64,000 nucleotides of DNA, taken from Parafannyhessea umbonata. Its GTDB lineage: Bacteria; Actinomycetota; Coriobacteriia; Coriobacteriales; Atopobiaceae. The notes under the pieces were generated by a model. The model did no database searches, was not told the origin of the DNA, and worked only from the letters and a program-made list of their open reading frames with translations. This document shows positions 30,953 through 43,430 of this stretch, piece after piece; position 1 is the stretch's first letter; each line of letters opens with the position of its first letter. The DNA is taken from contig NZ_LT629759.1 of the NCBI RefSeq assembly GCF_900105025.1, forward strand, positions 1 through 64,000. The letters run 5' to 3'. The translations under genes and the position numbers were made by a program.

Positions 30953-31810
30953 CTACATGCTCTCGCGGAGAATCTGCGCAACCTCGTCTGGGGTCAGGGG
31001 ATGGTAGCCGCCGGTGAGGATGAAGGTGCTCTTTACGGCATCGTCGATCATGTCCTCGGTGAAGCCAAGCTCGCTCAGGTGCTTGACCGCGCCGATTTCG
31101 TCCTTAACGGCGATGCGGCTTGCGTGCACGAGGCTGCGCATGAGGCCCTCGGCCATGTAGTCTGAGGTGTTGTCGTCCGTGCCGGAGAAGTACTGCTCGC
31201 AGATGTGGTTGAAGGCGTCGTAGATGCTGGCGCGCATCTGGTAGTCCGGGACCGTGAAGGTGAGCTCGGGGTTCACGATGGCAAACCTGGGCATCACCTC
31301 GGGGCCAAAGACGTGGCCGATCTTGAGGCCCTGCTCGTGGTTGGTGATGACGGAGCCGGCGTTCATCTCGGAGCCGGTGCCGCTCATGGTGAGGACGTCG
31401 CCCACGGGGATGATTCTGCCGTCGGGCTCTTCCATCCTGAGGAAGAACTTCTCCCATGCGTCGCCGTCGTACTAGGCGCTCACGGAGACGGCCTTGGAGC
31501 AGTCGATTACCGAGCCGCCGCCCACCGCGAGGATGAGGTCGACGTCGTTATCGCGGGCGACCTTGCGACCCTCGTCCAGCTTCTGGACGGTGGGGTTGCT
31601 CATGACGCCGGGGACCTCGAACACGGTCTTTCCGGCGGCGTCCAGTGCGGACATCACCTTGCTGTACAGGCTGCTCCGCTTAATCGACCCGCCGCCGTAG
31701 GCCAGAGGGACCTTGGGGCCGTACCCCGCGAGCTCGCCGCGGAGCTGGACGAGGGAGTCTGGGCAAAAGTGCACGCGGACCGGGTCGTGATAGGTAAAGT
31801 TGCCAAGCAT
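30953..31810 (-). pseudogene. iron-containing alcohol dehydrogenase with internal deletion and amber codon
   Basis: The N-terminal part (MLGNFTYHDPVRVHFCP through LAVGGGSVIDCSKAVSVSA) has the NAD-binding GGGSVID motif. An in-frame TAG at 31472-31474 follows. The frame then continues YDGDAWEKFF to NHICEQYF, with TMSGTGSEMN and an iron-ligand stretch. After GLMRSLVHA it jumps to EIGAVKHLSELGF and ends normally. Compared with the usual 380-390 residues, about 95-100 including the central iron-binding His residues are missing. It cannot encode an active enzyme. Confidence 0.8.
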
Positions 31811-35183: not shown

Positions 35184-36146
35184 CTACTCGCCCACGGCGT
35201 CGCGGTAGCGGTCCAGGTCCTCCTCCCACGTGGCATACGTGGGGTCGCCCCGGTGGTCGGGCAGCCCGTAGCGCCTGCTCAAGAGAGCGCTCAGCTCGCG
35301 CGAGACCTTCGTGGCGCCGCTCAGGTTAAGGTGATCGCCTCGGTCGCGCGTGTCCGTGCGCCAGTCGATGCCCACCTTGTGCCGTCCGCGGTTCAGGTCT
35401 ATGTAGTCGACCCTCATCCTGCGGGACAGCCGCGCGATGCCGTTGTGGCGCGGCGTGCTCCAGTTGACGGTAGAGGGCGTGCTCACCAGCACGGGCGTCG
35501 CGCCGTGCGCACGGCAGTAGTCGACCATAAGGCGTAGGTACTCCTGGTTCTCCCGCGGCACCACGCTCACCTCGCGCGTGCGTGCCATGTAGTCGACGTT
35601 GCGCGCAGGCTTCACCTCGGTGTTGACCACGAAGCCCCTCAGGTACGCGCGCGAGTTGTCCGACTTCGCAAGGTCGCGCGTAAGGATGCGCTTCCAGCGG
35701 TCGTGGTACTCGAAAATGGGCACGTGGTCCTGCAGGAACCTCAGTGATGGGTCAAGCGTCGAGAAGGACGAGTACACAGAGTTGGTCTCTATCACCACCA
35801 CGCGCGGGCTGCTTGTGGCGAGGGCCTCGCGCAGCAGCGTGTAGCCATACGGGAGCCTCTGGCCGTGCGAGGCGATCACGCGGCTGGCAAAGCCGCTCTC
35901 GCCCCACATCTCGAGGGGTGAAAACGCGCTGTATGCCTCGCTGTCGCCGATGAACAGCACGTCGAGGCCGCCGTTCTTCTCGCCCGTGGCGTCATGCGCC
36001 GTCGCGTCCACCGTGCCTTCCTCGTGCGCGTCGGCCTTGGGCAGCGACGCCCACGACGTCACGGCCAGCAGGCCGGCGACCACAAGGAAGACGGCCAGCG
36101 CCGTGAGGGCAACGCCCAGGCGGGCGCGGAGCTTCTGGTTTCTCAT
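35184..36146 (-). CDS. DltD-like SGNH-fold membrane-anchored protein
   Basis: 320 residues. An N-terminal membrane anchor (residues 11-31) is followed by an extracellular SGNH-like domain. VLFIGDSEAYSAFSP (residues about 63-77) holds the nucleophile Ser, VVVIETNSVYSSF follows, and the late catalytic pair is RGDHLNLSG (Asp and His). It is shorter than classic DltD (about 400) but occupies the same operon place. In the Dlt pathway this protein completes transfer of the activated aminoacyl group to the surface polymer. It starts 9 bases after the MBOAT stop and is last in the operon. Confidence 0.8.
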   Translation of the reverse strand: MRNQKLRARLGVALTALAVFLVVAGLLAVTSWASLPKADAHEEGTVDATAHDATGEKNGGLDVLFIGDSEAYSAFSPLEMWGESGFASRVIASHGQRLPYGYTLLREALATSSPRVVVIETNSVYSSFSTLDPSLRFLQDHVPIFEYHDRWKRILTRDLAKSDNSRAYLRGFVVNTEVKPARNVDYMARTREVSVVPRENQEYLRLMVDYCRAHGATPVLVSTPSTVNWSTPRHNGIARLSRRMRVDYIDLNRGRHKVGIDWRTDTRDRGDHLNLSGATKVSRELSALLSRRYGLPDHRGDPTYATWEEDLDRYRDAVGE

Positions 36147-36155
36147 GCGTGCCTC

Positions 36156-37745
36156 CTAGAACTTCGCGTACATGGGCGCGATGGGGATGTAGCTTGCGCC
36201 GTACGCGCCAAAGATCACGATCGCCATGAACAGCGCTATTGCCACGGCCCAACGGGCGACGGTGCCGCGCTCGCACAGGGCGCCCAGCACGTCGCGGCCG
36301 CGCTCCCGCGCTATGCCTACGGCGAGCACGCCTGCAAGTGCCAGGCAGACCACCAGATAGTCCGGGCCGTCCAGGCCCACGGCAAATATGGCGCCGCTCG
36401 TGAACGCGCCGAACGAGAAGTCCGTCACGATCCTGCGGAACATGGCGAGGCCGGCGGCAAGGCCGTTGGCGCGGAAGAACATCTCGCCCACGAAGACGAT
36501 GACGAGGGTGCGCACGGTCTGGAACGCGCGGTACGGCGCGGACGTGCGGTCGACGTGCAGGCGCAGCGCCGCCTTTGCGGCGATGGGCTCGACGAGGCCG
36601 CCCGCCATGATGAGGACGAAGTAGTACATGCCGAAGAACAGGTACTGGCTGCCGGCGCCGTGCCACAGGCCGTTGATGACCCACACGCACAGCAGGGCGA
36701 CGGAGCTTGCCAGCAGCGGCCCGTAGCGGTTGCCAAACACCTTGCGCGCCCGCTTGGTCAGGCGCTTGCACGGCGCGCTGAGCGAGACGGGGTAGTACAC
36801 GTAGTCCTTCAGCCACGTGCCCAGCGTGATGTGCCAGCGCTTCCAGAACTCCGACGCGGTGCGCGAGAAGAACGGCTGCCTGAAGTTCCTGGGTAGGCGG
36901 ACGTTGAAGATCTGGCCGATTCCAAGGGCCACGTCCATCGTGCCTGAGAAGTCGCAGTACAGCTGCAGCGTGTACAGGATGGCCGCAAACGCCGTGACGC
37001 CGCCGTCAAACAGGTAGTGGCCGCCAAACACGGGCCGGACAAACGCGTTGAGCCTGTCCGCCACGATGATCTTCTTCGCGAAGCCGTACAGGATGCGGAC
37101 CGTGCCCGCGTACATCGACCTGCGGTCCAGCGGCTCGCCCGCGGTGAGGGACTCCGCCGTCTGGTTGTAGCGGCAGATGGGGCCCTCCATGATCTGCGGG
37201 AAGAAGCTCAGGTACAGCGCGACGCGGCCAAGGTTTCTGTCCGCGCGCACGGACTCGCGATAGACGTCCACCAGGTAGGACACCGCCATGAGCGTGTAGA
37301 ACGAGATGCCTATGGGGAGGTCGTGCGGCGGCACGCTGACCACGAAGCCGTGGCCGAAGAGCCCGAGCAGGTCGGAGAGCGCCTCGCCAAAGAACCTGAC
37401 GTACTTGAGCGCGACGAGCATGCCCACGTTGAGAAGAACGCCTGCGCTGAGGATGGCGCGCATGCGGCGCTTCGCGTTGGCGCGGATGGCGCGCTTTCCC
37501 GACGTTGCGTTGGCGAGCCGCTCGTCCCTCTGCCTGATCTGGGCATCGAGGGCGAGGGCGAGTCCGTAGACGGAGGCCGTCGAGGCCAGTATGAACACGA
37601 TGAGCCTGCCGCTGAGGATCCAGAAGAACGCGTAGCTCGCCACGAGGAGCACGACCCAGCGCGCCTTTCTGGGGGCGATGCCGTACGCGGCCACCACTAG
37701 GGGCAGAAACACCGCGAAGAACAGGATGGAAAAATAGGAAGTCAT
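36156..37745 (-). CDS. DltB-like MBOAT acyltransferase
   Basis: 529 residues with about a dozen membrane segments. The start MTSYFSILFF is preferred to a longer frame. MBOAT hallmarks are PQIMEGPICRYNQ, FWKRWHITLGTWLKDYVYYP (in outline) and the catalytic-His motif INGLWHGAG. In D-alanylation DltB moves the aminoacyl group from the carrier protein across the membrane. Here it sits between the carrier protein and the DltD-like gene, in the order ligase, decarboxylase, carrier, MBOAT, SGNH. The cargo is probably not plain D-alanine, as argued for the ligase. Confidence 0.88.
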   Translation of the reverse strand: MTSYFSILFFAVFLPLVVAAYGIAPRKARWVVLLVASYAFFWILSGRLIVFILASTASVYGLALALDAQIRQRDERLANATSGKRAIRANAKRRMRAILSAGVLLNVGMLVALKYVRFFGEALSDLLGLFGHGFVVSVPPHDLPIGISFYTLMAVSYLVDVYRESVRADRNLGRVALYLSFFPQIMEGPICRYNQTAESLTAGEPLDRRSMYAGTVRILYGFAKKIIVADRLNAFVRPVFGGHYLFDGGVTAFAAILYTLQLYCDFSGTMDVALGIGQIFNVRLPRNFRQPFFSRTASEFWKRWHITLGTWLKDYVYYPVSLSAPCKRLTKRARKVFGNRYGPLLASSVALLCVWVINGLWHGAGSQYLFFGMYYFVLIMAGGLVEPIAAKAALRLHVDRTSAPYRAFQTVRTLVIVFVGEMFFRANGLAAGLAMFRRIVTDFSFGAFTSGAIFAVGLDGPDYLVVCLALAGVLAVGIARERGRDVLGALCERGTVARWAVAIALFMAIVIFGAYGASYIPIAPMYAKF

Positions 37746-37775
37746 ACTATCCCCTGGGTTGGGACCTACAGAGAG

Positions 37776-37812
37776 CGCCCCCGGCGACACGAGTGTTTGG
37801 TCGGCGGGGGCG
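37776..37812 (-). other. intercistronic stem-loop between carrier and MBOAT genes
   Basis: 12-bp stem cgcccccggcga / tcggcgggggcg (one mismatch) with a 13-nt loop and no T tract. It lies in the only sizeable gap of the operon after the carrier gene. It could stabilise the upstream mRNA or attenuate expression of the membrane half. Confidence 0.6.
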
Positions 37813-37831
37813 TCTTGGTGCGTATGGGAAG

Positions 37832-38068
37832 CTAGTCGAGCTCCTCCTCGCGTAGGCGCCTGACCAGCATCTCCATCGCCTCGACGGAGTTGAAGTTGTC
37901 GGCGACGATCTCGACGGGCGGGACCTCGATGTCATACTCGTCCTCGAGCTCGGCCACGAGCGCGACCATGGTGAGCGAGTCGATGACGCGGTCGTCGATC
38001 AGCGTGGTGGAACCCTCGAAGTCGACGCCGGGCTTGAGCTCCTGAAGGATTTCGGTAACGGTCCTCAT
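37832..38068 (-). CDS. DltC-like acyl/aminoacyl carrier protein
   Basis: 78 residues. The phosphopantetheine site is Ser31 in VIDSLTMVAL, in a four-helix carrier fold with an acidic surface (EDEYDIEVPP). It would receive the aminoacyl group from the adenylating enzyme as a thioester on its 4'-phosphopantetheine arm and pass it to the MBOAT protein. The ribosome site is aacgcaaaggagaagaac, a leader shared almost verbatim with other genes in this window. The 64-bp gap separates it from the decarboxylase. Confidence 0.88.
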   Translation of the reverse strand: MRTVTEILQELKPGVDFEGSTTLIDDRVIDSLTMVALVAELEDEYDIEVPPVEIVADNFNSVEAMEMLVRRLREEELD

Positions 38069-38132
38069 GTTCTTCTCCTTTGCGTTGTCTGCACGTTGCG
38101 TGCGTGGTCGTGCGGTATGTCGTGACGCTCTG

Positions 38133-39323
38133 TCAGAGCGGGCGAACGCTGTTGAGGGGTGCGGTATCGATGTGGTCGCGCAGAAGCGTGAGCTTGCCCG
38201 CGCGGTCGCGCCAGACGATGGCGGGGAGGTCGCGGCTCAGGAAGAGCGACATGCCCTCCGTCATGCAGTAGGCGCCCGCCTTGTCGAACGCTATGAGGTC
38301 GCCCACCGCGAGGTCTCCCAGGGGCATCTGCTTCACGAGGATGTCGTTCGTGGTGCAGAGCGAGCCGCAGACCGTCCAGCGGAGGCTGGCGTCGCCGTGG
38401 GGGAGAAGAGCGTGGCACGGTGGCTGCTTCATGGCCATGGCATGGCCGTAGTACGTGATCTGGTGCATGCCGCCGTCGACGATGGCGACATTCTGGCCGC
38501 CGACCTGCTTTGCGTCCACCACGCGCGTGACGTAGGTGCCGCACGTCGCGGCGATGCGACGGCCGAGCTCGATGGTGACCTGGCCGTCGAACGACGCGTC
38601 GGCAAGCGCGCGGGAAAGCGCGAGCGCCGGCTCGAGCTCCGTCTGGCGGACGGCCTTAGGGTCGCGCTCGAAGTACTCGACGGGAAGGCCCGCGCCGTAC
38701 TCCATCTCGGCGAGGGGGCTGCCGTAGGCGCGGCCGACCTCCGCCACGAACCTGTCGAGCTTCGCGACCTCGCGCGCGATGCGCTTGGGCGAGGTCTTCT
38801 GGGTGCCGGTGAAGTACTGGATGCCGCGGATGGTGACGTACGGGTCGTTGGCGCATGCGGCCGCGAGCTCGACGATCGTGTCCGCGTCCATGCCGAACTG
38901 GCTGCCGTTGCTGAGACGGAGCAGCAGGTCGACGTGGGTGCACGCCTCGCGCGCCAGCCCGGTGAGCATGTCGAACTGGAGGCGGGACTCGCAGGTGAAG
39001 TGGCCGATGCCCGCGTCGCCCGCGATGAGCTCGCGCATGAGGGCGGGGTCCTTCGCGACGCCCGAGACGACGATCTGACTGGGGTCGACGCCCGCGGCCT
39101 GGCAGATGCGCACTTCTCCCGTAGAGCAGGCCTCGAGCCTGTCGACGAGCCTCGAGATGGGACCCACCACGAACGGGTTCGCCTTCATGGCGAAGCAGAT
39201 GTTGGTATGAGGGGGCAGGACCTCGCGGATGCGGCTGACCTGGTCTGCCAGCTCGCGCTCGTCGAAGACGTAGAACGGCGTCTGGCAGAACTCGCCCACG
39301 CGCCTGAGTTCCTCTGCGTTCAT
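38133..39323 (-). CDS. fold-type III PLP-dependent decarboxylase (LysA/BtrK-like)
   Basis: 396 residues. The PLP lysine is Lys47 in CFAMKANP. GIQYFTGTQ, the Gly-rich phosphate region MEYGAGLPVE, IELGRRIAATCG, VDGGMHQI and the C-terminal active-site Cys/Asp block GSLCTTNDIL with FDKAGAYCMTEG all match the diaminopimelate/ornithine decarboxylase fold. The FTGTQ and VDGGMH motifs look closer to BtrK, which decarboxylates an aminoacyl group while bound to a carrier protein, than to LysA (from memory, not aligned). It sits between the adenylating ligase and the carrier protein, 6 bases after the ligase stop. That suggests decarboxylation of carrier-bound or free substrate before surface transfer. 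Ordinary dlt operons lack it. Confidence 0.85.
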   Translation of the reverse strand: MNAEELRRVGEFCQTPFYVFDERELADQVSRIREVLPPHTNICFAMKANPFVVGPISRLVDRLEACSTGEVRICQAAGVDPSQIVVSGVAKDPALMRELIAGDAGIGHFTCESRLQFDMLTGLAREACTHVDLLLRLSNGSQFGMDADTIVELAAACANDPYVTIRGIQYFTGTQKTSPKRIAREVAKLDRFVAEVGRAYGSPLAEMEYGAGLPVEYFERDPKAVRQTELEPALALSRALADASFDGQVTIELGRRIAATCGTYVTRVVDAKQVGGQNVAIVDGGMHQITYYGHAMAMKQPPCHALLPHGDASLRWTVCGSLCTTNDILVKQMPLGDLAVGDLIAFDKAGAYCMTEGMSLFLSRDLPAIVWRDRAGKLTLLRDHIDTAPLNSVRPL

Positions 39324-39329
39324 GCCGGC

Positions 39330-40868
39330 TTACCTTCCTTCCTTGGACTTGGTGGGGAAGTGCGTCCTGAGCAGCTCTGCCCGGTCGACCTTCCCGTTCT
39401 TGTTGAGGGGCATGGAATCCACCCTGGTGATGCTGGAGGGTCTCATGCTTGCGGGGAGCGTGTCCGCCACGAGGCGCGGCAGCGCGGCCTCATCTGCGGT
39501 GCCCTCGAAGAACACGCGCAGGCGCTGGCGCCGTGTGTCGAAGGCGCAGCGACACCTCTGCACGCCGGGGAGGTCCTCGAAGGCCTTGTCGACCTCCTCG
39601 AGCTCGATGCGGTGACCCATGTACTTGATCTGGTTGTCACGGCGCCCGCGGAAGACGAGGTCTCCGGAATCGAGCAGCTCCGCGAGGTCGCCGGTACGGT
39701 ACACGCGGTCGTGGTACATGCTGTTGAGCGGGTTCTGCACGAAGGCGCGCGCGGTGGCCTCGGGGTTGCCCACGTAGCCAAGGGCGACGGACGGGCCGCG
39801 CACGACGAGCTCTCCCAGCTTGCCCGGCTCCGTCACGAGGTGGTCCGCCTCGTCGAGGAGAAGGACCTCGCAGTGGCCGAAGCTCCTTCCCAGGGGAAGG
39901 CCCTGCGGATATGCGGCCGTGCGGTCGACCACGTGGTACAGGCAGTTGCAGGTGATCTCCGTGGGACCGTACAGGTTGACGAAGCGGGTGTTGGGCAGGC
40001 ACTTGAGCCAGGCGTCCAGGTGCTTTCTGGGGATGACCTCACCGCTGAAGAGCACCTGCCTCACGCTCTGGAGCCTGCCGGGCGAAAGCACGTGGTACGC
40101 GCTGGCGATGCAGAGGGCTGCCACGGCCCAGACCATGACGGTGACCTGGTTCTTTTCGAGGTAGTCGACGAGGGCCTGCGGCTGCATGAACAGCTCGCGC
40201 GGGACGAGCACGAGGGTGGCTCCCACGGCGAGCGACCCGTACACGTCCTTCACGGAGATGTCGAAGTCGAACGGAGCCTGGTTCGCGAAGCGGTCCTCGC
40301 TGGTGAAGCCGAAGGTGCGGACGAACTCGTCCACGAAGCTCGCGATGGCGCCGTGGCTGACGGCAACGCCCTTTGGCGTGCCGGTGGAGCCGGAGGTGAA
40401 CATGACGTACGCCGGGTCGCACGAGAGCACGTGGGAGCGGGCCGCCTCGAGCGCCTCCGCGTCCACCGGGTGGCGGAGCAGCTCCTCTGCCACGAGGACC
40501 TTGCGCTCCGGAAGGGCCTGGTGCACGGCGTCCACGTTCTTCTCGCCCGCGACGACGAGGGCGTCCCCGAGGGTTGCGGCCATGTGCTGGAGCCTGTGCG
40601 CGGGCGCGTCGGTGTCGACGGGCACGTAGAACGCGCCGGCCTGCAGGGTGCCGAGCATGCAGGCAAGTGCGAGTTCGCTCTTGCGCAGCATGATGATGAC
40701 GGAAGACCCGGACGCGCCGCGGCTTGCGAGCGCGGTGCCGATGCGCTGGGTGTCTTCCAGCAGCCTTGTGTATGTATAGGTGCCGGACTCGTCCACGACG
40801 GCCGTCGCGTTGGGGTTGCGCCTGGTGGAGTCCTCGAGGTAGGTGAGGACGTTCGTTCTTGAGAGCAT
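39330..40868 (-). CDS. DltA-like aminoacyl-adenylating enzyme (carrier protein ligase)
   Basis: 512 residues, the length of DltA. Adenylation motifs are A3 FTSGSTGTPKG (157-167), A5 NLYGPTE (298-304), A7 YRTGD, A8 GRRDNQIKYMGHRIELEE and A10 PLNKNGKVDR with Lys493. Asp203 in PFDFDIS matches the alpha-amino-binding Asp of DltA. At the position of the DltA Cys that shapes its D-Ala pocket (LFCGEV in B. cereus, recalled), this protein has Ser275 (LFSGEV). It activates an amino acid and loads the carrier protein. Substrate identity is open; the altered pocket and the adjacent decarboxylase argue against simple D-alanine. Confidence 0.87.
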   Translation of the reverse strand: MLSRTNVLTYLEDSTRRNPNATAVVDESGTYTYTRLLEDTQRIGTALASRGASGSSVIIMLRKSELALACMLGTLQAGAFYVPVDTDAPAHRLQHMAATLGDALVVAGEKNVDAVHQALPERKVLVAEELLRHPVDAEALEAARSHVLSCDPAYVMFTSGSTGTPKGVAVSHGAIASFVDEFVRTFGFTSEDRFANQAPFDFDISVKDVYGSLAVGATLVLVPRELFMQPQALVDYLEKNQVTVMVWAVAALCIASAYHVLSPGRLQSVRQVLFSGEVIPRKHLDAWLKCLPNTRFVNLYGPTEITCNCLYHVVDRTAAYPQGLPLGRSFGHCEVLLLDEADHLVTEPGKLGELVVRGPSVALGYVGNPEATARAFVQNPLNSMYHDRVYRTGDLAELLDSGDLVFRGRRDNQIKYMGHRIELEEVDKAFEDLPGVQRCRCAFDTRRQRLRVFFEGTADEAALPRLVADTLPASMRPSSITRVDSMPLNKNGKVDRAELLRTHFPTKSKEGR

Positions 40869-40950: not shown

Positions 40951-42582
40951 TTAGTCTTTCTGCGCGGGCGGGAGGGTCATGAGGACCTCCGTGGAGTACG
41001 GGGCCTCCGGACGCTCCGCGAACGATATCGTGCCGCCTTGCACCTGCATGCACGTGCTGGCGACGGCAAGGCCCAGTCCCGTGCCCTTGCCGGCGGAGCG
41101 CGCCGTGTTGCTGGTGACGAACGGCTCGAACGCGTGCTCGCGGATGTCTGTGGGCACGCCCTGGCCGTCATCCGCGATGGAGACGAGGGCGCCGTCGCGC
41201 GTGGGAGCGCACGCGATGCGGATGGTGACGCCGCGCGGGTTGTGCTTGTAGGCGTTGTCTATCACGTTGCTGACGGCGCGCCTGAGGAGCTCGACGTCCG
41301 CGCGGGCGCGGATGGGTCGCTCCGGCAGCTCGACCACGAGCGTACCACCCGCCTGCTCGATGTCGGGCTGTTTGTCGATGAGCATCAGGCGCAGGTCCTC
41401 GCACAGGTCGCGGTTCTCGAGCGTCGCCTGGTACGAGGGATGGTCGGTCTTCGCAAGAAACTGCAGCGAGTCTATGAGCTCGCACGCAAGGTCGGCCTTC
41501 GCGGCAATGGCGTGCAGGTACTTCTCGGCGTTTTCCTGTGGAACGTGGCCGTCCTCGAACGCCTGGGCGTAGCCGCGGATGACCGAAAGCGGCGTCTTCA
41601 GGTCATGCGAGATGTCTGCAATCATGCGGCGCTTGTCGTCCTGCGCCTGGTCGAGCTCTGCCATGAGGCCGAGGAAGTCCTCGTAGGTGTGCCTGAGCTC
41701 CACGGGCATGGAGGACGGGTCCGGCGCGTTGCCGACGCCGCTGCGGCGCGCGTCTATGGCGCGGTCCAGGGGGCGGGTGGACTTGCGCACGACCCGCGCG
41801 AGGACGGCGATCGCCAGCACCGTGAGCGCGACGGCGATGGGCACCGCTGCGATGCGGTAGGCGTTCGAGCGATCGACGGCGGCCCTGAAGTCCTTGCCGG
41901 ACTCCGTTGGCGAAAGCAGCACGAGGATGCGCCGCTGGCCCTTCTCGTTCTTGTAGTTGTGCTTCGCGATCATCATGCGACGACTGTACACACCTTGGAG
42001 CAGGGACATCTCACGCTTGGTCAGTCGGGCCTTATTGCCAAAGAGGCCGCCGCTCACGATGGTGCCGTCCGAGAGGTACGAACAGGTGGACTTGACGCTT
42101 ATGGCGTAGCCGTCCGGGGTGGGCGTTGGCTTGCAGAGGTTGATCTCGTGTACGGTCCTGCCCTGCGCGTCCGTGCGGTCGAGCATCACGTACGCGGAGC
42201 CGTCGTCCTCGTCGCCCGCGATGAGCGGGAGCTCCTTTGCGGTGATCTTTTGGGCGACGTTCCGGCTGGTCGAGAAGAGCAGCTTTCCCTCCCCGTCGAA
42301 CACCAGAAGCGCGCTGGGGCGCGAGACCTGCGACCCCATCTGCCGGAAGTCGTCCGTCTGCATCATAGTGGAACCGTCGTCGAACATCTCTATGTACGGT
42401 GAGGTGCGCTTGAGCTCCTCGTTCGCGAGCTGGTTCGTGACGTGTAGCAGGCCTGCCATCGCGAGTATGTAGGCCAGCACGATGAGCAGGCACCTTACGG
42501 TGAGGCTCGTTGTCGCGTTGCGAAGCGTGCTGCGCAGGCGGGCGCTTGCGGTGCGCTTGGCGCTCTGTTCGCTACTCGTCAA
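40951..42582 (-). CDS. membrane sensor histidine kinase
   Basis: 543 residues. Membrane segments at about 31-48 and 243-264 flank a roughly 190-residue extracellular sensor with two Cys (NLCK, STCSYL) that could pair. HisKA follows with His326 in ISHDLKTPLSVIRGY. HATPase_c then has the N box VSNVIDNAYKHNP, DDGQGVP and GKGTGLGLAV. The signal is unknown; surface-charge or peptide stress would suit the Dlt-like operon immediately downstream on the same strand. The start overlaps the regulator stop by 11 bases. Confidence 0.88.
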   Translation of the reverse strand: MTSSEQSAKRTASARLRSTLRNATTSLTVRCLLIVLAYILAMAGLLHVTNQLANEELKRTSPYIEMFDDGSTMMQTDDFRQMGSQVSRPSALLVFDGEGKLLFSTSRNVAQKITAKELPLIAGDEDDGSAYVMLDRTDAQGRTVHEINLCKPTPTPDGYAISVKSTCSYLSDGTIVSGGLFGNKARLTKREMSLLQGVYSRRMMIAKHNYKNEKGQRRILVLLSPTESGKDFRAAVDRSNAYRIAAVPIAVALTVLAIAVLARVVRKSTRPLDRAIDARRSGVGNAPDPSSMPVELRHTYEDFLGLMAELDQAQDDKRRMIADISHDLKTPLSVIRGYAQAFEDGHVPQENAEKYLHAIAAKADLACELIDSLQFLAKTDHPSYQATLENRDLCEDLRLMLIDKQPDIEQAGGTLVVELPERPIRARADVELLRRAVSNVIDNAYKHNPRGVTIRIACAPTRDGALVSIADDGQGVPTDIREHAFEPFVTSNTARSAGKGTGLGLAVASTCMQVQGGTISFAERPEAPYSTEVLMTLPPAQKD

Positions 42583-43318
42583 AGCGGTACCCCAATCCGC
42601 GCACGGTCTTGATGTGGGCCGGCCTTCCCGGGTCGTCCTCGATCTTGGAGCGGATGTTCGAGACGTGCATCATGATGCTTTCGGCCCCGCCGTAGGAGCT
42701 GCCGCTTATGGCCTCGTACAGCTGCGCCTTCGTGAACACGTGCCCGGGTGCGGACATCATCTTGTGAAGGATCTTCAGCTCGGACGCCGTGAGCGGCATT
42801 ACGTTGCCGCGCTTGCGGAGCACGAGGGTGTCGAGGTCAAGCTCGAGGTCGCCGGCGGAAAGGACGTTCTTCTCGCCCGTGGCGGGGCCTTCGCCGTCGT
42901 GCGGCGCGGCCTTGCTCTGGTTGTAGCGACGCAGTGCCGAGCGCACGTACGCAAGGACCTCCGTGGGGTCAAACGGCTTGGTCACGTAGCCATCCGCGCC
43001 CAGGTCAAGGCCGAGCACCTTGTCCGAGGGCTGGTTGCGCGCGGACACGATGATGATGGGGATGTCCGTGAAGGCGCGGGCCTCCTTGATGAAGTCGAAG
43101 CCGTTCATGGAGGGCATCATGAGGTCCACAAGCACCAGCGACGCCTCGCCCTCGTGCAGGACGTCGAGGCCGTGCTTTCCGTCGCCCGCGGAGAGGAAGC
43201 GGTAGCCGCTGCTTTCCAGGTAGAGGCGGAGTATCTCCACGATGTCCGGATCGTCCTCGACGACAAGGATTGTGTCCTGCGGTTTCTGCCCGCCTGCGGC
43301 GGCATCCGGTGCTTGCAT
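42572..43318 (-). CDS. OmpR/PhoB-family response regulator
   Basis: 248 residues from the ATG behind aacagagg (a TTG 18 bases upstream is possible). Receiver domain: acidic pocket VVEDD, phosphoacceptor Asp65 in LVLVDLMMP, and conserved Thr/Lys (VSA..., YVTKPF). The C-terminal winged helix shows LTASELKILHKMM, AISGSSYGGAESIMMHVSNIRSKI (in outline) and IKTVRGLGYRFDE. An unusually long linker (about 30 residues, Gly/Pro/Asp rich) joins them. It pairs with the overlapping kinase gene and probably binds the 11-bp repeats before the Dlt-like operon. Confidence 0.9.
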   Translation of the reverse strand: MQAPDAAAGGQKPQDTILVVEDDPDIVEILRLYLESSGYRFLSAGDGKHGLDVLHEGEASLVLVDLMMPSMNGFDFIKEARAFTDIPIIIVSARNQPSDKVLGLDLGADGYVTKPFDPTEVLAYVRSALRRYNQSKAAPHDGEGPATGEKNVLSAGDLELDLDTLVLRKRGNVMPLTASELKILHKMMSAPGHVFTKAQLYEAISGSSYGGAESIMMHVSNIRSKIEDDPGRPAHIKTVRGLGYRFDE

Positions 43319-43430
43319 CTTGGCCTCTGTTTCCAATGCCTGGTCGATGCTGCAATCGTGAGCGATTGGCGCGCCAGATGCAAGGGGTCACGCGAATTCG
43401 CTTGCAGGGTTCACGCTTTTGGTAAGGAAG

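Follow-up and report, generated by a model that had tools for sequence, protein, structure and literature searches.

We analyzed a 64,000-nucleotide stretch of DNA from Parafannyhessea umbonata (the window; positions 1 to 64,000 of contig NZ_LT629759.1, RefSeq assembly GCF_900105025.1) and examined a five-gene operon on its minus strand at positions 35184-40868. The operon resembles the dlt genes for surface D-alanylation but includes a decarboxylase gene. Our results make it somewhat probable that it encodes a regulated surface aminoacylation system of the Dlt type in which a decarboxylation step takes place on the carrier protein. The group added to the surface is probably something other than D-alanine.

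Organization and conservation of the operon

The first gene of the operon codes for a stand-alone adenylation ligase (39330..40868; 512 amino acids [aa]) that scores 345 bits on TIGR01733, above the cut-off. It is followed by genes for a fold-type III decarboxylase dependent on pyridoxal 5'-phosphate (PLP; 38133..39323; 396 aa; Pfam PF02784 and PF00278), a carrier protein with its phosphopantetheine Ser in a D-S-L motif (37832..38068; 78 aa; Pfam PP-binding), a long DltB-like membrane-bound O-acyltransferase (MBOAT; 36156..37790; 544 aa; Pfam MBOAT), and a membrane-anchored protein of the SGNH fold (35184..36146; 320 aa; Ser69 and His272) with a putative DltD-like role. Pfam and NCBIfam models confirmed the families of the first four proteins. 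Successive genes, from the ligase to the SGNH protein, are separated by 6, 64, 41-86, and 9 bases. The true start of the MBOAT gene is probably the ATG at 37745, which gives a protein of 529 aa. An initial annotation had placed the five genes consecutively on one strand, and the coordinates of the open reading frames (ORFs) agree with it exactly; it had overlooked the regulator and kinase genes directly upstream, which are described below. Neither a promoter consensus exceeding chance nor an Rfam match was found in the operon region. A 13-bp inverted repeat predicted to form a hairpin (z -3.1) lies between the carrier and MBOAT genes (window 37776-37812, minus strand). This repeat could be a partial terminator, and it was not found in the sister genome (locus L039).

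We scanned about 85,000 species genomes with a decarboxylase profile, which yielded 562 confirmed relatives, and retained the best 80 loci. Because the loci were chosen by the decarboxylase, that gene is present by construction, but its neighbors are not. The exact order ligase-decarboxylase-carrier-MBOAT-SGNH is kept in 69 of these best 80 loci, which argues that the gene block did not arise by chance. Three of the 80 loci have the rearranged order ligase-decarboxylase-SGNH-carrier-MBOAT, and most of those remaining are cut by contig ends. The best 80 loci come from Coriobacteriia and Bacillota, and the bacteria that carry them include Collinsella, Enorma, Thermophilibacter, Adlercreutzia and other Eggerthellaceae, Pseudoflavonifractor, Agathobaculum, Catenibacillus, Lachnospiraceae, Oscillospiraceae, Acetobacterium, Holdemania, and Streptococcus suis. 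Within the bacterial family of P. umbonata, a decarboxylase homolog (E < 1e-50) is present in 36 of 140 genomes. Among 397 genomes sampled across Actinomycetota, the decarboxylase gene was found only within the five-gene order. Searching the family with the ligase removes the bias of choosing loci by decarboxylase. In this search, the decarboxylase adjoins all 19 ligases of the window's clade, and in a ligase tree this clade has the decarboxylase throughout. The five-gene linkage is far beyond chance. This survey had been proposed in the initial annotation, and it bears out the architecture described there: a Dlt-like set of adenylation ligase, carrier, MBOAT, and SGNH protein, with a decarboxylase strictly linked to the ligase and carrier.

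Some loci have features of their own. In S. suis SSHP-D (locus L140, 58-11948), the operon has its own regulator and kinase and lies near guaA. Because genes for a SAG1250-family conjugative relaxase and a tyrosine integrase immediately precede it, horizontal transfer of this copy is likely, and the copy probably belongs to an integrative element. At another locus (L050, 3750-9543), the ligase and SGNH genes are each split into two ORFs, reflecting either decay or sequencing error. Four loci from one genus (L057, L059, L060, and L062) contain a second long MBOAT gene on the opposite flank of the ligase-decarboxylase-carrier genes.

The decarboxylase has a BtrK-like motif

We counted residue conservation among relatives of the ligase (n=100), decarboxylase (n=110), carrier (n=106), MBOAT (n=92), and SGNH protein (n=96). 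Both Pfam domains of the decarboxylase are full length. The PLP-binding Lys47 is present in all 110 relatives, Cys323 and Asp327 are present in 109, and Glu356 and Arg364 are near-invariant. Position 324, which follows the catalytic Cys, is Thr or Ser in 109 of the 110. The best NCBIfam match is TIGR03099, at 171 bits against a cut-off of 478, and the score on the lysA model TIGR01048 is 159 bits against a cut-off of 297.9. A separate LysA homolog is encoded at 310 kb in the same genome and scores 282 bits on TIGR01048, just below the cut-off. Since this homolog adjoins dapA, a second biosynthetic LysA is unnecessary.

We compared the operon enzyme to LysA and to BtrK, which acts on a carrier-bound substrate and converts its gamma-glutamyl group to 4-aminobutyrate (GABA). 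The catalytic Cys motif is CENSD in the genome's own LysA homolog, C-T-x-x-D in the operon enzyme, and CTPED in BtrK. The operon enzyme has G-x-Q-Y-F-x-G-T-Q in place of the usual H-x-G-S-Q, and the corresponding BtrK sequence is GIHVYTGTQ. A loop of about 12 residues precedes an F-G motif in LysA and BtrK but is missing from the operon decarboxylase. An AlphaFold model of the enzyme (predicted local distance difference test [pLDDT] score of 89) has SbnH, LysA, and BtrK among its structural neighbors, with the BtrK match at about 23% identity. SbnH decarboxylates a conjugated substrate. In its motif, the decarboxylase is BtrK-like rather than LysA-like, and the TIGR01048 score and the separate LysA homolog also set it apart from LysA; this supports the comparison with BtrK made in the initial annotation.

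In LysA and ornithine decarboxylase, the distal amine of diaminopimelate (DAP) or ornithine is bound by an acidic residue that comes after the Cys, and loss of this residue argues against a diamine substrate. This comparison bears on a model in which the ligase attaches DAP, or some other diamino diacid, to the carrier by one carboxyl, and decarboxylation of the bound group at its other center yields a lysyl ester. The kinship of the decarboxylase to LysA in sequence is consistent with that model, and lysyl decoration would also add positive charge. However, where LysA (including the copy encoded in this genome) has Glu directly after the catalytic Cys, the operon enzyme and its relatives have Thr or Ser, the loop shared by LysA and BtrK is missing, and loading free lysine would be simpler. 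We regard formation of a lysyl ester by this route as very improbable.

The ligase is distinct from DltA

On TIGR01734, the equivalog model for DltA, the ligase reaches 275 bits where the cut-off is 559.85. No gene of the genome passes this cut-off, and the Bacillus subtilis and Lactococcus lactis controls do. We read the ligase pocket off the ungapped motif YGPTEITCNC and verified it column by column, which assigned Asp203, Lys207, Ser275, Cys307, Asn308, and Lys493 to the pocket. Asp203, Lys207, Ser275, and Asn308 are present in all 100 relatives, and Lys493 is present in 99. In Bacillus cereus DltA, Asp197 binds the amino group of the substrate and Cys269 confers selectivity for D-alanine (PMC4176424). 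The operon ligase keeps Asp197 as Asp203 but has Ser275 in place of Cys269 and Lys207 in place of Met201. Ser occupies the Cys269 position in 100 of 100 relatives, and DltA orthologs from the same bacterial family keep F-C-G-E in four of five cases. Judged from its residues, this pocket disfavors a D-alanine-specific ligase. A glutamate code of nonribosomal peptide synthetases also has Lys at the Lys207 position, and we propose the pairing of Lys207 with an acid from such specificity codes; the glutamate code DAKDLGVVDK was not found in our literature search. The ligase matched structure 5jjq, presumably IdnL1, at 237 bits.

True DltA/DltB pairs with the usual pocket occur in relatives from the family. 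One genome (G103) contains the decarboxylase operon (locus L056) together with a DltA/DltB pair (locus L183) that has a partly divergent motif in its ligase pocket, and the two are therefore separate systems. The core gene types of the operon are the same as dltA, dltC, dltB, and dltD, as they would be if this were an ordinary D-alanine operon with a linked but functionally separate LysA paralog. Against such an arrangement, the ligase, carrier, and MBOAT all score far under the Dlt cut-offs, the DltA pocket residues are replaced, true DltA/DltB pairs are found in relatives and, in G103, beside this system, and the linkage to the decarboxylase is maintained across two phyla. Of the alternatives we weighed, this one has the least chance of being correct.

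The carrier, MBOAT, and SGNH proteins have conserved catalytic residues

The phosphopantetheine Ser of the carrier is conserved in all 106 relatives. The MBOAT matches DltB from the PDB (E 7e-26) and scores 139 bits on the LTA_dltB model against a cut-off of 375, though His320 and His377 (the His of R-W-H and of W-H-G) are conserved in 92 of 92 relatives. The SGNH protein does not match any Pfam or NCBIfam model, and no protein of the genome matches PF04914 (DltD) above the cut-off. Its AlphaFold model, built from 27 sequences (pLDDT 83), shows a single helix at the N terminus and a domain of the SGNH fold. Foldseek ranked TesA-like and esterase structures first for this model, with the DltD structures 6pfx and 3bma lower. 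His272 is present in 96 of 96 relatives and Ser69 in 94. Because catalytic residues are conserved in all five proteins, the machinery encoded by the operon looks active.

Proposed pathway

A PLP enzyme of the fold-type III decarboxylase kind removes the carboxyl on the amine-bearing carbon. Decarboxylation on the carrier is possible only if the amino acid is tethered through another carboxyl, as in BtrK and VinO. We propose that the amino acid adenylated by the ligase carries a second carboxylate (L-aspartate or L-glutamate would be the simplest candidates), with Lys207 of the pocket as a candidate holder of the free carboxylate. The side-chain carboxyl would be joined to the phosphopantetheine of the carrier, and the decarboxylase would strip the free alpha-carboxyl on the carrier to give a beta-alanyl or 4-aminobutyryl thioester. 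By analogy to DltB and DltD, the MBOAT and the membrane-anchored SGNH protein would carry the group across the membrane, where it would probably form an ester on a surface glycopolymer. The expected outcome is a primary amine on the surface polymer, with a positive charge like that of D-alanine but a different acyl group.

The case for decarboxylation on the carrier draws on the precedents of BtrK, VinO, and FlvN, on the C-T-x-x-D motif, and on the strict gene linkage. VinN rejects the decarboxylated compound 3-aminoisobutyrate, and VinO acts on 3-methylaspartyl-VinL (PMC11284099). Because the vicenistatin ligase rejects the decarboxylated product, loading precedes decarboxylation in that pathway. 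FlvN takes Asp (PMC11284099). The BtrK precedent cited in the initial annotation holds and is broader than described there, as it extends to VinN/VinO/VinL, to the Asp-selective FlvN (PMC11284099), and to the NCBIfam pair TIGR03098/TIGR03099.

Alternatively, the decarboxylase could act on a free amino acid and supply a product such as beta-alanine or GABA for loading by the ligase, with the remainder of the system working as in Dlt. This order of events would also account for the linkage of ligase and decarboxylase, and clusters that lack the decarboxylase could draw the product from metabolism. However, the operon motif is of the BtrK type, and BtrK is a carrier-acting enzyme. The acidic residue that follows the catalytic Cys in enzymes for DAP or diamines is absent, the invariant pocket Lys would have nothing to do if the substrate had a single carboxylate, and VinO acts only after thioester formation (PMC11284099). 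We consider decarboxylation of a free amino acid unlikely, though it is the most credible of the alternatives.

Paralogous clusters vary in their decarboxylase content

A second Dlt-like cluster is present in the same genome at 437.6-442.6 kb (locus L038, 7656-12605). It contains genes for a GT2 protein, a long MBOAT, an SGNH protein, a ligase, a carrier, and a DUF6541 membrane protein. There is no decarboxylase gene, and the ligase, which is encoded at 440730-442247 and is 45% identical to the window ligase, has the same pocket. This second layout (MBOAT-SGNH-ligase-[decarboxylase]-carrier) adjoins glycosyltransferases, and its decarboxylase is present in several genera and absent in others. 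We considered whether the cluster at 437.6-442.6 kb shares the decarboxylase of the window operon and rejected this as a general rule, as such clusters occur without any close decarboxylase in the genome.

These clusters and several other observations weigh against the pathway we propose. Ligases of the second layout share the pocket whether or not a decarboxylase is present, including in genomes without a close decarboxylase. Paralogous clusters pair the same ligase pocket with no decarboxylase, so the pathway can include decarboxylation but does not depend on it. This leaves three readings: the decarboxylase-free clusters may use the undecarboxylated acid, the pocket may not report the acid, or the PLP enzyme may have another activity such as racemization. 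In adenylation domains for alpha-amino acids, a conserved Asp binds the alpha-amino group beside the activated carboxyl, and the proposed pathway would instead need a side-chain carboxyl to be activated. With regard to the acceptor, the genome encodes three LtaS-like PF00884 proteins, one of which has a weak lipoteichoic acid synthase match, and the PF04464 teichoic polymerase was not found in the genome. The pathway drawn in the initial annotation is thus supported in part: the architecture, the BtrK-like motif, the linkage, and the non-DltA pocket favor it, but the paralogous clusters without a decarboxylase weaken it.

If the PLP enzyme were a racemase or epimerase of aminoacyl-carrier substrates, the D form would be attached by clusters that have the enzyme and the L form by those that lack it. 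That activity would account for the occurrence of one ligase pocket in both kinds of cluster. Fold type III includes alanine racemase, and the enzyme has a weak match to PF01168. However, neither of the two decarboxylase domains is truncated, 109 of 110 relatives retain the catalytic Cys and Asp of the C-terminal one, and the closest structures are decarboxylases. Racemization is accordingly a distinctly unlikely explanation.

The slot between the ligase and carrier genes varies in other ways. At three loci (L169, 4646-5497; L170, 6576-7466; L174, 6991-7854), it holds a gene for a GNAT acetyltransferase-like protein, which suggests that tailoring of the carrier-bound group is exchangeable. We found no convincing gene between ligase and carrier at loci L157 and L158. 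In Dlt-like clusters of ligase, carrier, MBOAT, and SGNH genes at loci L171, L175, and L176, the ligase lacks the amine-binding Asp (the pocket begins S-M-S) and therefore probably loads something other than an amino acid.

Two-component system and neighboring genes

Directly upstream of the operon, on the same strand, are genes for a membrane-bound sensor histidine kinase (40951..42582; 543 aa; Pfam HisKA and HATPase_c) and an OmpR-type response regulator (42572..43336; 254 aa; Pfam Response_reg and Trans_reg_C). At least 3 kb of upstream sequence was available for 76 of the five-gene loci that contain the decarboxylase. Among them, a regulator homolog is directly upstream in 34 and a kinase homolog, mostly full length, is upstream in 33. 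Homologs of both, most of them full length, are directly upstream in 32 of these loci, and only 2 of 32 loci with other cluster layouts have both genes upstream. We conclude that the two-component system belongs with the five-gene operon. Its probable role is to turn the operon on or off according to the state of the envelope. Elsewhere in the window, a gene judged by its translation to encode an iron-type alcohol dehydrogenase is divided between two ORFs, at 30953-31435 and at 31472-31810 on the minus strand, which represents either a disrupted gene or a sequencing error.

Significance and comparison with known systems

D-alanine tunes the charge of the Gram-positive surface and thereby influences how well the cell withstands cationic peptides and how the host recognizes it. 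If our proposal is correct, a second charge-tuning chemistry exists in hundreds of genomes, including those of Collinsella, Eggerthellaceae, Oscillospiraceae, and Lachnospiraceae, and it would be invisible to D-alanine tests and DltA inhibitors. Should the released group be GABA or beta-alanine, the envelopes of gut bacteria would also be a new reservoir of amino acids that are neuroactive or serve as vitamin precursors. The S. suis copy beside conjugative-element genes suggests that the trait is mobile. More tentatively, and with the odds slightly against it, we suggest that the operon stands for a kind of surface modification that is widespread among anaerobic gut bacteria and has not been described before, with beta-alanyl or GABA esters made from carrier-decarboxylated Asp or Glu, export by MBOAT and SGNH proteins, a ligase-carrier slot whose exchange varies the acyl group by lineage, and horizontal spread. 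In line with the initial annotation, we found no described system of the same kind in the open-access literature (subscription journals lay outside this scope). Searches of this literature on dlt together with a decarboxylase, on the exosortase A decarboxylase, and on beta-alanyl or aminobutyryl teichoic acids likewise yielded no description.

We compared the operon to characterized systems that share some of its components. The decarboxylase has the fold type, both domains, the PLP Lys, and the catalytic Cys of LysA. It differs in its score below the TIGR01048 cut-off, the Thr or Ser that replaces Glu after the Cys, the missing substrate loop, and the setting of its gene, which is linked to genes for a ligase and a carrier and not to those for lysine. 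The NCBIfam pair TIGR03098/TIGR03099 likewise consists of a ligase and a PLP decarboxylase from these two superfamilies, and the names of the models assign them to one system. The operon proteins score far below both cut-offs (205 against 592 bits and 171 against 478 bits), and the pair is tied to exosortase loci of Gram-negative bacteria.

In the BtrJ/BtrK/BtrI system, BtrK shares the C-T-x-x-D and G-T-Q motifs and converts a glutamyl-carrier to a GABA-carrier. This system builds the antibiotic side chain of butirosin rather than modifying a surface polymer, and BtrJ is not known to be an adenylation-domain ligase. VinN/VinO/VinL and FlvN, which we compared by description, offer the likeness of an adenylation-domain ligase, a PLP decarboxylase, and a stand-alone carrier. 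In macrolactam loading, Asp or 3-methyl-Asp is loaded and then decarboxylated on the carrier (PMC11284099). These proteins feed a polyketide synthase instead of a membrane acyltransferase, and they are accompanied by no MBOAT or SGNH protein.

The closest overall likeness is to DltABCD, in which an adenylation ligase, a small carrier, an MBOAT with the conserved histidines, and a membrane-anchored SGNH protein are likewise encoded in one operon. A two-component system adjoins the operon, as in several dlt systems. However, no protein scores above the cut-off for the DltA, DltC, or DltB equivalogs, the SGNH protein does not match PF04914, the ligase pocket lacks the Cys that selects D-alanine, and a decarboxylase is present. 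The MBOAT is about 530 aa long, compared to 384-399 aa for DltB of relatives. A DltA equivalog score, the Cys269 pocket, and a PF04914 protein, all of which define Dlt, were looked for and are absent from the operon. We conclude that the operon probably works like Dlt but should not be classed as Dlt.

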